Part shown: one piece after another, positions 47,314 through 53,616 of the stretch
Layout: the number at the start of each line of letters is the position of its first letter
Position numbering within the stretch: position 1 is the first letter of the stretch
DNA from: Rossellomorea sp. y25
GTDB lineage: Bacteria > Bacillota > Bacilli > Bacillales > Bacillaceae_B
Direction: 5' to 3'
NCBI RefSeq assembly: GCF_038049935.1
Contig: NZ_CP145886.1
Coordinates: 2,116,501 to 2,180,500 of the forward strand
Length of the DNA stretch: 64,000 nt
Translations under genes and position numbers: made by a program
The notes under the pieces: generated by a model
The model's database searches: none
The model's input: only the letters and a program-made list of their open reading frames with translations
Told to the model about the DNA's origin: nothing

Positions 47314-47628
47314 GCTTCTTGTTACCGAGCTGAAAATTAGATGGCCACATGTCGATAAATGTAAGGGATTTCTAAAAATGGCAGGTATTCTCCCATTCAT
47401 CACAAAATGTTCGGAATTTCTTCAGCTATTATATGACAAAGCGACTTCATATAGTTTAGAATGATAGATAATTAAGGTAAGGCTTCAAGAGTTTAGAGTG
47501 CATCAAGCAATTGTATTGAAAATCGATTTTTACATTAAAGAATAGTTAATAGAAGTAAAACGGTTCTCGAATAATTGGCTGATTCATTCATTCTTTTGGT
47601 AGGTTATGCTGTTTTAAGGAGAGAATTG
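47314..47628. other. Intergenic region, nothing recognised
   Basis: About 315 bp of AT-rich sequence without a convincing frame, hairpin terminator or conserved leader. The promoter of the following hydrolase gene must be here. Confidence 0.4.
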
Positions 47629-48426
47629 ATGCTAGAATACAATGTTCATCAAGGAGTCGGCAAAGAATATGTGGTGTTTCTTCATGGAATTGGAGGAAAC
47701 TCGAGAATTTTCGGTAAGCAGCTCGATATATTCAAAAAATATTATAATGTAATAACGATTCATTTGCCCGGGCATGGGGAGTCCCCAAGCGTAGAATCAT
47801 ATAATGAAAAGTTTACAATTGATTTAAATGTGCGTGAAGTTCTTAAGGTATTAGATCATCTTAAAGTGGAACGTGCTCATTTTATTGGAATTTCTTTAGG
47901 ATCGGTTCTAATTCACGCTTTATTACAAGCTGCTCCAAACAGAGTAAAAAGTGCCGTCTTAGGGGGATGTATCACTAGATTCAATTTATTATCCAATACA
48001 CTACTTAAAATTGGTGATGCAGTGAAAAACATGATCCCATTCATGTGGTTGTATAAAATTTTCGCCTACATCATGATGCCTAAAAGCAATCACAGAATTT
48101 CGAGAAAGTTATTCATTCGCGAAGCAAAGAAAATGAATCGTAATGATTTTCTCGGATGGTATCGTCTGACACCCTTTGTGAAATCAACGTACGCTTCTGT
48201 GCAGGAAAGGGCTTCTCATGTTCCTAAGCTTTATATTTCCGGGAAAGAAGATCATCTATTTGTTCAGTCACTTGATCAGGATACAAAGGGAGATCCCTCA
48301 GCTACGAAAGTGTTCATTGAGGATTGTGGACATGTGTGCAATGTAGAGAAGCCAAGTGAATTTAATCGACTGGCTCTTGATTTCATTTATAAGAACCAAG
48401 ACGTTCCATTGCGTAAGGTTCAATAA
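47629..48426 (+). CDS. Alpha/beta-fold hydrolase
   Basis: 265 residues from ATG 47629, about 7 nt after AAGGAG; frames reaching further upstream lack a binding site. Motifs: HGIGGNS (oxyanion), HLPGHGES, nucleophile Ser in GISLGS, an Asp near GKEDHLF, and catalytic His in DCGHVCNVEKP. This is a typical esterase/lipase-like hydrolase with an unknown substrate. Confidence 0.87.
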   Translation: MLEYNVHQGVGKEYVVFLHGIGGNSRIFGKQLDIFKKYYNVITIHLPGHGESPSVESYNEKFTIDLNVREVLKVLDHLKVERAHFIGISLGSVLIHALLQAAPNRVKSAVLGGCITRFNLLSNTLLKIGDAVKNMIPFMWLYKIFAYIMMPKSNHRISRKLFIREAKKMNRNDFLGWYRLTPFVKSTYASVQERASHVPKLYISGKEDHLFVQSLDQDTKGDPSATKVFIEDCGHVCNVEKPSEFNRLALDFIYKNQDVPLRKVQ

Positions 48427-48668: not shown

Positions 48669-48745
48669 AAAGGAATTGAGGAAGGATTAAGAGAATATAG
48701 TATAGATGGGTGTTCGAAGGGGAGTTGAGGGGTTTGGTGAAAGAG

Positions 48746-49465
48746 ATGATGAATTTTAGATATGAGGAGTATCCTTTTGAGTTGTTTTCGGTATCCCATG
48801 TGGTAGCAATGATTGTCTCGTTTGGATGTATGATCGGTTTGTATGTGTTCAGAAATCAACTAAACGGCAGGGGTAAGAGTGTGTTTAAATGGCTTCTGGT
48901 GGTGCTTATGGTTTTGAGTGAAGCATTATTTCAGATTTGGTACTTTATCAATGATCATTGGGATGTAGCCATTAATTTGCCGTTTCAATTATGTTCCATC
49001 TCATTGTATCTGTGCACGATCATGCTCATAACGAAAAGCTATAGAATCTTTGAAATCAGTTTTTTTGCCAGTATGACGGGTGCTTTTATTGCCATCGTGA
49101 CACCTGAGTTGTTTTTTGGTTTTCCTCATTTTCGTTATTTTCAATTTTTCTTAGCACATCTGACGATCGTTATATCCTGTTTGTACATGGTATGGATAGA
49201 AGGCTTCACAATAACGTTCCGATCTATGGTTAGGGCATTCATCGCTTTAAATCTGATCGCTGTTTTCGTGTTTTTGTTGAACAGACTGGTTGGAGCAAAT
49301 TATATGTTTCTTTCTCATAAACCGTATAATGCAAGTCCCATAGATTATTTAGGCGAGTATCCCTGGTACCTCCTTGCTCTTGAAGGTGTCGCCCTTATAT
49401 TATTCATCCTCCTTTATTTACCGTTCTATCTCTTAAGAAAAAGGAAGAGTGTAGGGGAATTGTAA
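48746..49465 (+). CDS. YwaF-like (TIGR02206) integral membrane protein
   Basis: About 239 residues with six or seven membrane helices, of the YwaF/TIGR02206 family: the FELFSVSH start, NLPFQLCSISLYL, and the end of a water-facing segment with YLGEYPWYLL. The start is uncertain: ATG 48746 gives a family-like N-terminus, while GTG 48737 and GTG 48710 are in the same frame. Function unknown. Confidence 0.78.
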   Translation: MMNFRYEEYPFELFSVSHVVAMIVSFGCMIGLYVFRNQLNGRGKSVFKWLLVVLMVLSEALFQIWYFINDHWDVAINLPFQLCSISLYLCTIMLITKSYRIFEISFFASMTGAFIAIVTPELFFGFPHFRYFQFFLAHLTIVISCLYMVWIEGFTITFRSMVRAFIALNLIAVFVFLLNRLVGANYMFLSHKPYNASPIDYLGEYPWYLLALEGVALILFILLYLPFYLLRKRKSVGEL

Positions 49466-49528: not shown

Positions 49529-50083
49529 ATGATGAGTAATAGTATGATCATAAGTATTATCATTTTGGTTTCTTATGGACTGGGAAGTATAACAGGTGCT
49601 TATTATATAGTGAAAATGTTTACCGGTGAAGATATCCGTAAACTGGGAAGCGGAAATGTCGGTGCGACGAACGCAGGTAGAGCAATAGGGAAAAAAGGAT
49701 TTCTTCTGACGCTCCTGATTGATGCCGGGAAAGTGATTCTTGCAATCATGATCACGGCACAACTGGCAGAAGGCGAGAGTTACTTAGTTCTCAGTTCGAT
49801 ATTTGCCATGATCGGACATTTGTTTCCAATCCAGCTTGGATTTCACGGGGGAAAGGGAGTAGTTGCTTATTTAGCATCTGCCTTATTTCTTAGTCCCCTT
49901 ACCATTGGGATTTTCGCCATCACTATGGGAATCTTATATCTAATTTTGAGAAGATACCCCATGGCCGGTTTTCTTTCAATGGCAAGCATTCCGATTACGG
50001 CGTATGTGCTTGAGGGTTCATTCACCATTTCAATCGGATTATTGTCACTATTTGTTTTTGTACTATGGGCTCATAAACGATGA
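49529..50083 (+). CDS. PlsY-family acyl-phosphate:glycerol-3-phosphate acyltransferase (paralogue)
   Basis: 184 residues, five membrane helices, with the three PlsY motifs: GSGNVGATNAGR, a GHLFPIQLGFHGGKGV segment, and a late helix segment before WAHKR. PlsY acylates glycerol-3-phosphate at the first step of phospholipid synthesis. Its neighbours (a GNAT/aminotransferase fusion and an LtaS-type enzyme) are unlike the usual plsY context, so I read it as a second, specialised copy. It starts at ATG 49529 after GTGTAGGT, with a second ATG 3 nt on. Confidence 0.88.
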   Translation: MMSNSMIISIIILVSYGLGSITGAYYIVKMFTGEDIRKLGSGNVGATNAGRAIGKKGFLLTLLIDAGKVILAIMITAQLAEGESYLVLSSIFAMIGHLFPIQLGFHGGKGVVAYLASALFLSPLTIGIFAITMGILYLILRRYPMAGFLSMASIPITAYVLEGSFTISIGLLSLFVFVLWAHKR

Positions 50084-50117
50084 AGCAGCAATCTGTCGAT
50101 ACATAGGAGGTACGAGA

Positions 50118-51728
50118 ATGGACAACCTTTCTCTTCAGTATAAAATAGCAAGTGAATCATATGAGTTTCAACAAATTTATACATTGAATTATGAGACCTT
50201 TGTAGAAGAAATACCTCAGCACGAAGGAAATCAAGAACGCAAACTGATTGATAAGTTTCACGATGAAAATACATATGTGATTGCTAAAGATCAAGGTGAA
50301 GTGGTGGGCATGATTGCAGTTCGTGCCAAGCGTCCCTTCTCATTGGATTTAAAACTGAGAAATCTTAATGAATATTTGCCGACTGATGCTGTCCCTTGTG
50401 AAATTCGCTTATTATCTGTAAAGGAAGCGTATAGAAGTACGAGGGTTTTTTATCAATTATGTGAGCGTTTAGTATCTTATTGTTTGGAGAAAGGATATAC
50501 GATGGCTCTCATTTCAGGGACGGTTCGTCAGCTGAAATTGTATAAACGAATAGGTTTCCAGCCCTTTGCCGATCTAGTAGGGGAGGAAGGGGCAAAATTC
50601 CAGCCAATGTATTTAACCCGTCATAGCTTCGAAAATTCGACGAAAGCCTTTCAGCGATTAATGATTCGCAAAACAGAAAAATCAGTTCCGCTTTCTTTCC
50701 TTCCAGGGCCGGTTCCACTTCATGGAAAGGTAGAAGAAGCTTTCAAAAGAGAACCCGTTTCTCATAGAAGCACGATGTTTATTCATGAAATGGAAGAAGT
50801 AAAAAGATCATTATGCGAGATAACAAACGCAAACTATGCAGAAGTTGCAGTGGGAACGGGTACCCTATCTAATGACATGGTTGCAGCTCAGCTGAAATGT
50901 TTGTCAGGCAGCGGCCTTATCCTGGCAAACGGAGAATTTGGGTACCGGTTGATTGATCACGCATACCGGTTTGATTTACATTTTCAAACGTTTGAAAAGG
51001 ATTGGAATGAACCCATTTCATTGGTCGAAGTGGAAAGCCTACTCCAGAAAAATCAGAACATAAAATGGCTTTGGACGGTTCATTGTGAAACGTCGACAGG
51101 CTATTTGTATGACTTGGACGGGCTACTTTCTTTGTGTAAAACGTATGGAGTAGAGCTATGCGTCGATGCCTGTAGTTCTGTTGGGACCATTCCAGTGAAC
51201 TTCAAGGAAGTGTACTTTGCCACAACAGTCAGTGGGAAGGGGTTAGGCTCTTATCCCGGCCTCGCTATTGTATTTCATAGGGACGATATACAATCCAGCA
51301 CATCAATTCCAAGGTACTTGGATATGGGAATGTACGAGGTGAATGGAAGCATCCCATTTACCCACTCATCTAACCTAGTAAGGGCACTAAAGGAGGCACT
51401 GCATTTTATTGAGTATGAAATGCATGAAAAATTAGCTCATAAAGTACGGTGTGTGTTAACACTAGGAGGATTTCATATACTAGGTGATAAAAACTATTCC
51501 CCAGGAGTGATTACAATTGCACTAGAGAGGGAACAGTGTAGTAGACAGTTTGGAGATGTTTGTAAAGATAGAGGTATTTTATTAAGCTACGAAAGTGACT
51601 ATTTGGTTAAGAGGAACTGGGTGCAGGTGGCACTCATGGGAACACAAAACGAACGAAAGGTTTTGAAAGCAATGAACATACTCAACAAAGAATATCAAAG
51701 CAATGTCGATTCAAGGGCTGTTAAATGA
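50118..51728 (+). CDS. GNAT acyltransferase / class-V aminotransferase fusion protein
   Basis: 536 residues from ATG 50118, 6 nt after AGGAGG. The first 190 residues or so are an N-acyltransferase-like domain (EIRLLSVKEAYRSTRVFYQLCERL is the acyl-CoA/acyl-donor helix region). The rest is a fold-type I, class-V PLP domain of the serine-pyruvate/alanine-glyoxylate type: FLPGPVPL opening, HR pair, GTGTLSND cofactor loop, VDACSSVG and the Schiff-base Lys374 in TVSGKGLGSYPGL. The two domains in one chain suggest that an amino product is made and acylated. It is 34 nt after plsY and overlaps the LtaS-type gene by 4 nt. Confidence 0.85.
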   Translation: MDNLSLQYKIASESYEFQQIYTLNYETFVEEIPQHEGNQERKLIDKFHDENTYVIAKDQGEVVGMIAVRAKRPFSLDLKLRNLNEYLPTDAVPCEIRLLSVKEAYRSTRVFYQLCERLVSYCLEKGYTMALISGTVRQLKLYKRIGFQPFADLVGEEGAKFQPMYLTRHSFENSTKAFQRLMIRKTEKSVPLSFLPGPVPLHGKVEEAFKREPVSHRSTMFIHEMEEVKRSLCEITNANYAEVAVGTGTLSNDMVAAQLKCLSGSGLILANGEFGYRLIDHAYRFDLHFQTFEKDWNEPISLVEVESLLQKNQNIKWLWTVHCETSTGYLYDLDGLLSLCKTYGVELCVDACSSVGTIPVNFKEVYFATTVSGKGLGSYPGLAIVFHRDDIQSSTSIPRYLDMGMYEVNGSIPFTHSSNLVRALKEALHFIEYEMHEKLAHKVRCVLTLGGFHILGDKNYSPGVITIALEREQCSRQFGDVCKDRGILLSYESDYLVKRNWVQVALMGTQNERKVLKAMNILNKEYQSNVDSRAVK

Positions 51729-53578
51729 GTCGGATAACCCTTTTTTTCTCCCGTTTTAAAACATATAAACTAGTAGGGTTTGCCCTTGTAACCCTATGGT
51801 TAAAGACCGCTTTAGTTTCCCTTATTGGATTTAATTTGCATATAGAATCCTTCTTGGACTTATTACTTATCTTATTCAATTCCATTGGTTCGTTAATGAT
51901 ATTAGTCGGGTTCAGTTTTTATTTCTCAAAAAAGATAAAACCCTCTGTTGTCGTCCTTGCCATGGGGATTGCAACTGGTCTACTATACGGTGATCTATTG
52001 TATTTTAGGTTTTACTCCGATTTTGTAACCGTTCCGATTCTATTTCAGTTTAAAAATGTAGGGGGCATCGGGCCAAGTACATTTGAACTGATGAGTCCTT
52101 GGGACCTTCTCTTAATTACAGATTTCCTTCTGCTCGGATGGTTATTAAAGAAAAAGTGGACTCATCCCGTTAATGTGTCAAAAAGGTGGAAGCTTTCATA
52201 TATCGGATTAAGCCTCCTGTTACTACTCGTTACAGTTGGATTAGGGCTAGTGAAATCACCGTATTTATTTGCTGAATCCTACGACAGAGAGCAAATGGTC
52301 AAATCAGTGGGACCTTATAATTATCATTTATATGATATTGGGGTCGAATCTACGGTTCCATTCACTAAGATGCTTGCCAGTAAATCAGATACAAAAGCAT
52401 CCCTTAAATATACACAATCCAAGAAGCGTAATGAGTCAGACTTATTTGGAGTTGCAGAAGGAAAAAATGTCGTATTAATCAGTATGGAATCTACACAGAA
52501 TTTTGTCATCAATCAAAAAGTCAACGGAGAAGAAATCACACCGTTCTTGAATTCTTTAATTAAGGATAGTTTTTATTTCAATCAAATTTATGACCAGACT
52601 GCACAAGGAAAGACGTCAGACTCTGAGTTTATGATTGATACAGGATTATATCCCTTAGCTAGTGGATCAGCTTTTGTTCGTAAACCTGATAACCGTTATA
52701 AAAGCATGCCCCATATTTTGAAACAGAAAGAAGATTATTATGCCGCTGTTTTTCATGGGAATGATCGTTCGTTTTGGAATCGTGATGTGATGTACGAATC
52801 GTTAGGATATGATCGCTACTTTTCGAAAAGAGACTTCAATGTATCTGAAGATAACTCAGTCAATTATGGAATAAAGGATATTCCGTTCTTCCAACAATCT
52901 ATTTCATATCTTGAAAAATTGCCGCAACCATTTTATACGCGTCTCATAATGCTGACGAATCACTTTCCCTTTTTATTAGAAGAAGAAGATAAACTTATTC
53001 CAGAGGCTTCCACAGGGGAGGATGTTGTTAACCGTTATGTCACCACGGTACGTTACGAGGATGAAGCGATAAAGACATTATTTAACAAGCTTAAAGCAAA
53101 CGGAATGTATGAGAACACTGTATTTGTACTTTATGGAGACCATTATGGCATCTCAGAAAAATATGAAAATGGAGTGTTCGAGCTTTTGGGGCAGGAAGAT
53201 ACCCCGGTGAATCATGTGAAGCTTCAGCAGGTACCCCTCATTATCCATGTCCCGGGAGAAAAAGGGAAAACGATTGAGACCATAGGGGGAGAAATCGATA
53301 TTCGTCCAACCATTCTTCACTTATTGGGGATTAAGATGAAAGATAATCTTTCATTTGGTCATAACCTGTTCACTAGAAAGGAAGATCATCCAGTCATTTT
53401 CAGGGATGGAGATTTTGTTACAGAAAAGTACGTCTTTAAAGACAATGTTTGCTATGACAAGAATAGTGAAACATCCGCTACTGAATCATTATGCGAGCCG
53501 TTCAAAGAAACGGTAAGAAAAGAGTTGGGGATGTCGGATGATATCATTTATGGAGATTTGTTGAGGTTTTTGGAATAG
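51725..53578 (+). CDS. LtaS-type lipoteichoic acid synthase / phosphoglycerol transferase
   Basis: 617 residues: five N-terminal membrane helices (about 15-180) and an extracellular sulfatase-fold domain. The nucleophile is Thr297 in AQGKTSDSEF, matching Thr300 of S. aureus LtaS; FHGNDRSFWNR and YGDHYG provide the metal and substrate ligands. LtaS-type enzymes polymerise glycerol-phosphate from phosphatidylglycerol onto a glycolipid. The 4-nt overlap with the GNAT/aminotransferase gene shows tight coupling. Whether it makes polymer or a single transfer (LtaP-like) cannot be read from sequence. Confidence 0.92.
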   Translation: MSRITLFFSRFKTYKLVGFALVTLWLKTALVSLIGFNLHIESFLDLLLILFNSIGSLMILVGFSFYFSKKIKPSVVVLAMGIATGLLYGDLLYFRFYSDFVTVPILFQFKNVGGIGPSTFELMSPWDLLLITDFLLLGWLLKKKWTHPVNVSKRWKLSYIGLSLLLLLVTVGLGLVKSPYLFAESYDREQMVKSVGPYNYHLYDIGVESTVPFTKMLASKSDTKASLKYTQSKKRNESDLFGVAEGKNVVLISMESTQNFVINQKVNGEEITPFLNSLIKDSFYFNQIYDQTAQGKTSDSEFMIDTGLYPLASGSAFVRKPDNRYKSMPHILKQKEDYYAAVFHGNDRSFWNRDVMYESLGYDRYFSKRDFNVSEDNSVNYGIKDIPFFQQSISYLEKLPQPFYTRLIMLTNHFPFLLEEEDKLIPEASTGEDVVNRYVTTVRYEDEAIKTLFNKLKANGMYENTVFVLYGDHYGISEKYENGVFELLGQEDTPVNHVKLQQVPLIIHVPGEKGKTIETIGGEIDIRPTILHLLGIKMKDNLSFGHNLFTRKEDHPVIFRDGDFVTEKYVFKDNVCYDKNSETSATESLCEPFKETVRKELGMSDDIIYGDLLRFLE

Positions 53579-53585
53579 CAAGCAG

Positions 53586-53616
53586 AAACCCCGGCTCTAT
53601 TGTAGAGTCGGGGTTT
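53586..53616 (+). terminator. Hairpin ending the plsY-GNAT/AT-ltaS operon
   Basis: A 14-bp stem with one G-T pair (53586-53599 with 53603-53616) and a 3-nt loop, but only TTT at the base. It probably terminates the operon. Confidence 0.65.

Follow-up and report, generated by a model that had tools for sequence, protein, structure and literature searches.

Gene Organization of the Locus

The window is the whole 64,000-nucleotide stretch of Rossellomorea sp. y25 DNA that was analyzed, and all coordinates are positions within it. In it, three open reading frames and a hairpin follow one another on the forward strand:

49529..50083, +, PlsY paralogue, 184 aa, proposed O-acyltransferase (PF02660, 124 bits)
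50118..51728, +, bifunctional N-acyltransferase and class-V PLP aminotransferase (the fusion), 536 aa, proposed N-acyl serinol synthase
50118..50645, +, AHL-synthase/FeeM-like acyltransferase domain, N-terminal, about residues 1–176 of the fusion
50682..51719, +, PhnW/AGXT-like aminotransferase domain, C-terminal, about residues 189–534 of the fusion (PF00266)
51237..51239, +, Lys374, predicted PLP lysine of the fusion (Lys in 79 of 79 aligned relatives)
51624..51626, +, Gln503 of the fusion, in the Arg column of 1vjo, 7e7g, and 9os7 (Gln in 79 of 79)
51725..53578, +, LtaS-type membrane glycerophosphate transferase (predicted), 617 aa, operon-specific clade (PF00884, NF053595)
53586..53616, +, hairpin directly 3' of ltaS, likely operon terminator by folding energy

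The three frames were confirmed, with ATG at 50118 as the start codon of the fusion, as was the tight packing described in an earlier note on this DNA (a gap of 34 nt between the PlsY paralogue and the fusion and an overlap of 4 nt between the fusion and ltaS). Pfam assigns the products, in order, to G3P_acyltransf, to FeeM/GNAT plus Aminotran_5, and to Sulfatase. The hairpin has a folding energy of -23.3 kcal/mol (z -4.69), and equal stability was reached in 0 of 200 shuffles; it is missing from the list of a consensus terminator scan.

Conservation of the Neighborhood

Among the named loci, which are the best 80 of 555 relatives, 65 carry plsY, fusion, and ltaS in the same order on one strand, each neighbor lying within 1000 nt of the fusion. 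This order is not due to chance. The earlier note had named a neighborhood not conserved in related genomes as one of two outcomes that would refute its reading; the reverse was found, and the operon is real and conserved. By predicted starts, fusion and ltaS are separated by at most 10 nt in 71 of 72 loci, excluding one with a broken fusion (L109). The fusion is carried by 33 of the 36 genomes of the genus, own genome counted, and among these 33 it is split over two frames in one and contains an internal stop in another.

A PlsY-like gene is located upstream of the fusion in 69 of the same best 80 loci. Eleven named loci have no adjacent plsY, and all eight of the genomes followed among them encode a PlsY of the fusion-linked type elsewhere. 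In a hand-picked set of 42 distant loci, 37 have the PlsY-like gene ahead of the fusion, as far out as Desulfitobacterium, whereas LtaS lies 3' of the fusion in only six and is absent nearby in 36; the conserved core is therefore the PlsY-fusion pair. Besides PlsY, no family was constant across lineages within three genes on each side of the fusion. Over 75 loci, the distance matrix of the fusion is correlated with that of PlsY (0.88), a value reached in 0 of 2000 permutations; shared species history would produce such a correlation as well.

The Fusion Protein

The earlier description of the middle protein as an acyltransferase-like domain joined to a class-V PLP aminotransferase agrees with Pfam, and Lys374, located in an SGKG motif, is invariant. 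Glu95 of the fusion is conserved too. By hmmscan, the N-terminal domain scores 28.6 bits against PF13444 (cut-off 22.4) and 38.8 bits against FeeM (cut-off 27), and both families are matched by 26 of 26 fusion members at E ≤ 0.01. Its fold is that of AHL synthases and FeeM (2g0b, 5w8c), enzymes that transfer acyl chains onto amines. Judged by fold and family, an acyl-donor site is probable; its absence was the second outcome that the earlier note had named as refuting its reading. The nearest named families of the aminotransferase domain are PhnW and the alanine-glyoxylate aminotransferases. Its best Foldseek match is 7e7g, a 2-aminoethylphosphonate (AEP) transaminase, and its scores against the PhnW-type equivalogs are 141.8 of 360.8 bits (PhnW-AepZ) and 94.4 of 400.8 bits, both below cut-off. 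At Gln503, all 79 relatives have Gln, and the PDB relatives 1vjo, 7e7g, and 9os7 have Arg. The Arg of this column binds the alpha-carboxylate of the substrate in the class-V aminotransferase fold.

According to a passage in PMC9605164, which cites work from 2017, hm-NAS genes of Desulfitobacterium hafniense DP7 and Bacillus sp. 2_A_57_CT2 expressed in Escherichia coli yielded N-palmitoyl serinol. An excerpt of PMC9762135 places the hm-NASs in PFAM13444. The fusion is very probably this known N-acyl serinol synthase, an identity to which the secondary sources and a single-copy argument point. Seven of eight genomes searched, including two Desulfitobacterium and five Cytobacillus, contained exactly one PF13444 match, the fusion, but the search missed the fusion of the window itself, which hmmscan places above cut-off, so other copies could have been missed too. 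Strain 2_A_57_CT2 is presumably a Cytobacillus-type strain. The gene set is consequently not wholly uncharacterized, and the earlier view that no pathway with these genes had been characterized has to be revised for its middle member. The enzyme is known; literature searches found no report of its pairing with PlsY and LtaS.

The PlsY and LtaS Paralogues

The first and third proteins look like paralogues because they score below the NCBIfam equivalog cut-offs, at 106 bits against 137 for PlsY (TIGR00023) and 660 bits against 970 for lipoteichoic acid synthase (NF053595, the best match of the third protein). The genome has two PlsYs, the operon copy being the lower-scoring one. Nineteen PlsYs not linked to the fusion form one clade (99/99) with the window PlsY outside, and L287, a fusion-linked PlsY, adjoins this clade with weak support (65/74). 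The G3P phosphate clamp of PlsY consists of Ser35, Arg45, Lys104, and Asn180 in a passage of PMC5700162. The window PlsY keeps the residues aligned with Ser35, Arg45, Lys104, and His177 and has Ala at Ser142; three of the four clamp residues are thus kept, and the protein ends before Asn180. The Asn180 column holds Asn in 19 of 19 unlinked PlsYs vs. 3 of 21 operon PlsYs, and by regular expression the motif is missing from 68 of 70. Of the PlsYs in distant pairs, 16 of 32 retain Asn180, as do two of eight distal ones. Since the window PlsY keeps most of the clamp and many distant pair PlsYs keep Asn180, G3P is possible as the acceptor. Among the 19 unlinked PlsYs, Ser35 is missing in three and Arg45 in three, so changes in the clamp also occur outside the fusion-linked group. 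Judged from their sequences, the fusion-linked PlsYs are separate from other PlsYs, with the same family and most pocket residues, and have partly lost the clamp. The window PlsY is proposed to be an O-acyltransferase that would use an acyl-phosphate donor and act on serinol, serinol-phosphate, or an N-acyl derivative.

Residues 17–616 of the LtaS-type protein align to the LtaS profile, and the nearest solved chains are 2w8d, 4uoo, and 2w5q, which we take to be the LtaS of Bacillus subtilis, Listeria, and Staphylococcus aureus, respectively. All 10 of the positions that we take to be active-site residues are present in the window protein and are kept across 23 operon LtaS rows, with Thr replaced by Ser in four. 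Architecture and active site are those of LtaS; the operon proteins, however, form a separate clade (100/100) against 21 paralogues, and the genome encodes three further LtaS-type proteins.

A Proposed Serinol-Lipid Pathway

The reading that we favor, with a probability of about 0.55, is that the product of the operon is a membrane lipid built on serinol, which would serve a dedicated LtaS as anchor or donor in Bacillaceae-type bacteria. Serinol is a nitrogen-bearing relative of glycerol. The aminotransferase domain would convert dihydroxyacetone (phosphate) to serinol (phosphate), and the AHL-synthase/FeeM-like domain would acylate the amine with a long chain taken from ACP or CoA to give N-acyl serinol (phosphate). 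The PlsY paralogue, acting either before or after N-acylation, would use acyl-phosphate to attach a second chain to a hydroxyl; the resulting N,O-diacylserinol (phosphate) would be the amide counterpart of diacylglycerol or phosphatidic acid. The set of aminotransferase, PlsY, and N-acyltransferase would parallel GpsA-PlsY-PlsC. In Bacillaceae-type bacteria, the dedicated LtaS may then make polyglycerolphosphate with this lipid, or with a derivative resembling phosphatidylglycerol, in the role of anchor or donor. The observed basis is the domains and fold, the conservation of operon and pair, the separate PlsY and LtaS clades, and the residue changes; we infer the O-acylation by PlsY, the use of the lipid by LtaS, the order of the steps, and the match to the hm-NAS genes. 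For the first step there is precedent in RtxA and Cj1437, which transaminate DHAP to serinol phosphate according to passages in PMC3222319 and PMC11800397. The invariant Gln503, where the three PDB relatives have Arg, also speaks for this chemistry, although the changed column makes it harder to see how an amino-acid donor would be bound. The LtaS step may be wrong, given its absence from 36 of the 42 distant loci and the three other LtaS-type proteins. The earlier note had proposed an amino- or N-acyl-bearing lipid loaded onto, or replacing, the LTA anchor; the N-acyl-bearing lipid is still the best reading, and the LTA link becomes secondary and less certain, since the core is the PlsY-fusion pair and LtaS joins it in some lineages (six of 42 distant loci).

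A wider version is offered tentatively, as possible rather than probable. In many Bacillota, serinol phosphate would replace G3P in a second full route to a phospholipid core, with the aminotransferase in place of GpsA, the PlsY paralogue adding the O-acyl chain, and the N-acyltransferase in place of PlsC. The amide lipid would resist hydrolysis and serve as the foot of a second kind of LTA made by the operon LtaS, and the GPR119-active N-acyl serinols would be intermediates or breakdown products.

N-acyl serinol may instead be the end product, a secreted amphiphile or signal, with PlsY (making lysophosphatidate from G3P) and LtaS (making ordinary LTA) merely co-regulated. The free N-palmitoyl serinol reported from E. 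coli, the retention of Ser35, Arg45, Lys104, and His177 in PlsY, and the intact LtaS active site would suit such an account, which we nevertheless consider rather unlikely: the pair persists across classes despite differing flanks, a linked-type PlsY is retained in all eight followed genomes in which the pair is apart, and the PlsY is distinct from the housekeeping copy, Asn180 being missing in 18 of 21 operon members. In GlsB/GlsA and OlsB/OlsA lipids, an amine is N-acylated and then O-acylated, and another amine could be treated likewise here, with the aminotransferase only supplying an amino acid. The name of FeeM refers to the synthesis of N-acyl amino acids, and O-acylation by GlsA yields a diacylated amino-acid lipid in a passage of PMC10666787; the invariant Gln in the carboxylate-binding column and the reported serinol product nevertheless make this route improbable. 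Less probable by far is a phosphonolipid route, in which 2-aminoethylphosphonate or the corresponding aldehyde would be the substrate of the aminotransferase and a phosphonate headgroup would be added by the operon. The kinship with PhnW and alanine-glyoxylate aminotransferases suggests it, but the fusion scores under the PhnW cut-offs, the same Gln and the N-palmitoyl serinol reported for hm-NAS speak against it, and PEP mutase (TIGR02320) was above cut-off in none of 13 genomes, own included, and sub-threshold in four.

Significance and Comparison with Known Systems

N-acyl serinols of commensals act on GPR119, a human hormone receptor, and the literature passages on these compounds do not explain why bacteria make them. 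The serinol-lipid operon, if true, would explain this production; a role as structural lipid rather than signal is suggested by PlsY as a frequent partner and by the dedicated LtaS of Bacillaceae-type bacteria. Predicted from it are a class of glycerolipid analogues with an amide linkage and a class of LTA anchors, and the fusion-linked PlsY with the fusion would be a marker pair for finding producers.

The hm-NASs of strain 2_A_57_CT2 (MIBiG BGC0001683), D. hafniense DP7, and Gemella are very probably of the same family as the GNAT and PhnW-like fusion; the literature passages present them as makers of free, host-active N-acyl amides, and in these a PlsY/LtaS partnership is unmentioned. In an excerpt of PMC12795557, phosphonate clusters of sponge symbionts show a weak match (score 0.16) to the 2_A_57_CT2 cluster, a resemblance that a PhnW-like domain could cause and that fits the probable identity with the fusion. 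FeeM and the AHL synthases share the N-terminal fold but are stand-alone and, by entry titles, have other amines as acceptors. RtxA, in its N-terminal part, and Cj1437 are likened to the fusion by the proposed reaction; in passages on them they supply rhizobitoxine or capsule, not lipids. The ancillary domains of Mycoplasma penetrans MetRS (9os7) resemble the fusion in that about 180 residues precede a class-V aminotransferase-like domain, but are linked to a tRNA synthetase, by entry title, and have Arg where the fusion has Gln; the Foldseek alignment of the two extends over 469 columns.

Operon Organization and Conservation

The operon consists of three genes on the forward strand, followed by a hairpin:

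49529-50083, + strand, PlsY family member (Pfam, NCBIfam)
50118-51728, + strand, fusion of a GNAT/FeeM domain and a class-V aminotransferase (Pfam, NCBIfam)
51725-53578, + strand, LtaS-type protein (Pfam, NCBIfam)
53586-53616, stable hairpin 3' of the three genes

The plsY and fusion genes are separated by 34 nt, and the fusion and ltaS genes overlap by 4 nt. All three proteins fall under the NCBIfam equivalog cut-offs of PlsY, PhnW, and LtaS. The genome (4.63 Mb, single contig) also codes for a second PlsY, scoring higher than that of the operon, and for three more LtaS-type proteins. The closest named relatives are mostly Rossellomorea.

Relatives of the fusion in named genomes were analyzed for the best 80 of 555, counting a neighbor when it lay on the same strand and within 1000 nt of the fusion. 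PlsY was upstream in 69 of these 80 loci and LtaS downstream in 73; PlsY alone was found in 4, LtaS alone in 8, and neither in 3. The packed three-gene operon described in the earlier note is real and also conserved, with all three genes in order in 65 of the 80. Any upstream gene of locus L071 would be out of view because the locus begins at a contig end, and the stretch for L078 stops 1.7 kb past the fusion. The fusion and ltaS overlap or lie at most 10 nt apart in 71 of 72 loci, and the median spacing from plsY to the fusion is 5 nt. Genes flanking the operon on both sides are common mainly to Rossellomorea-type loci. One of the upstream genes (48710-49465, 63 nt from plsY) encodes a TMEM164/TIGR02206-family membrane protein and adjoins plsY only in Rossellomorea and close Bacillus-named loci among the best 80 of 555; LhaT, of the same superfamily, has been tied to lipoprotein N-acetylation (PMC12345273). 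Further upstream (47575-48426) is an alpha/beta hydrolase with a weak match, one of many to hydrolase families, to OlsI, an ornithine-lipid O-acyltransferase.

Of 42 hand-picked stretches around remoter fusions, 37 had a PlsY-like gene upstream in the same orientation and five did not (L268, L269, L271, L272, and L273). LtaS was downstream in six, the copy at L298 being only a fragment. The remaining families within three genes of the fusion on either side were limited to near relatives or recurred at scattered places. The conserved core is the PlsY-fusion pair. Near the pair in the Desulfitobacterium loci (D. dehalogenans, G421, and G381, a genome with the same genus label) no LtaS was found, and the next gene is presumably MscL-like, as read from its sequence. 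The plsY of D. dehalogenans (L154, 8450-9120) is split by one in-frame stop, with the fusion intact. In one Bacilli family (f196; L274-L279, L284, and L285) a very divergent, long-branched PlsY of about 170-180 aa adjoins the fusion.

Product of the Fusion

The fusion is probably an N-acyl serinol synthase (probability about 0.75). Genes for such synthases (hm-NAS) from D. hafniense DP7 and Bacillus sp. 2_A_57_CT2 have been reported to yield N-palmitoyl serinol in E. coli (PMC9605164), Gemella has been named as another source (PMC11271093, PMC10666787), and hm-NASs have been assigned to PFAM13444 (PMC9762135). The fusion was the sole PF13444 match in seven of eight genomes searched. The eighth, that of strain y25 itself, gave no match, yet hmmscan places the domain over the family cut-off, so the genome search was not fully sensitive. 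Transamination of DHAP to serinol-phosphate is known for RtxA and Cj1437. A serinol skeleton thus agrees with the chemistry, the precedents, and the gene content. The earlier note's proposal of an envelope-lipid pathway was right in kind; the middle enzyme is very probably already known. The new part is the proposed two-gene lipid module of PlsY and fusion, its specialized PlsY, and the dedicated LtaS. That enzymes of the host might turn N-acyl serinols into phospholipid-like products by O-acylation has been raised as a speculation in a 2025 review (PMC12594153); the PlsY-fusion gene pair suggests that the bacteria carry out this step themselves.

Proposed Specialization of PlsY and LtaS

Among 80 PlsYs compared in a tree, one clade (99/99) holds the 19 that are not linked to a fusion, and the other 61, fusion-linked or distal, lie outside it; the L287 PlsY adjoins the unlinked clade with weak support (65/74). 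The fusion has no plsY next to it in 11 named loci; eight of these were traced into their genomes, and all eight genomes carry a linked-type PlsY at another place. Of the positions considered, which include the glycerol 3-phosphate clamp defined from PlsY structures (PMC5700162), Ser35, Lys104, and His177 are each kept in 61/61 linked and distal PlsYs and Arg45 in 57/61. Asn180 is kept in 3/21 operon, 16/32 distant, and 2/8 distal PlsYs, whereas all 19 unlinked PlsYs have it; three of the latter lack Ser35 and three lack Arg45. The y25 operon PlsY ends ahead of position 180. With the clamp partly kept and Asn180 often lost, the acceptor pocket is changed rather than abolished, as would be expected, short of proof, for a serinol-type acceptor. 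It is reasonably likely that this paralogue acts on the substrate or product of the fusion.

A single clade (100/100), separate from 21 paralogues of eight genomes, unites the 23 operon LtaS proteins, and these keep the catalytic residues. Distances of fusion and LtaS correlate at 0.90 (45 loci), and those of fusion and PlsY at 0.88 (75 loci) or 0.86 on the 45 LtaS loci; shared ancestry contributes to both correlations. This coupling is most simply explained if LtaS acts on the proposed lipid, but that is the weakest step of the proposal, and use of the lipid by LtaS is put forward only tentatively.

Distribution of the Fusion

The fusion was found in 33/36 genomes of a genus sample, 47/299 of an order sample, and 9/82 of a sample of Desulfitobacterium's class. 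Four of 398 genomes in a phylum sample were over threshold, one of them through the aminotransferase part alone. A frame change or a stop disrupts the fusion gene in a few close relatives (L109, 10001-11609; G035:C1:809287-810895; G005:C3:1487188-1488792), and certain strains may therefore be able to do without the pathway. Fusions with about 50-54% identity to that of Desulfitobacterium occur in records (P0144, P0162, P0164, P0199, and others) bearing the names Sumerlaea, Limisphaera, Verrucomicrobia, and Acidobacteria.
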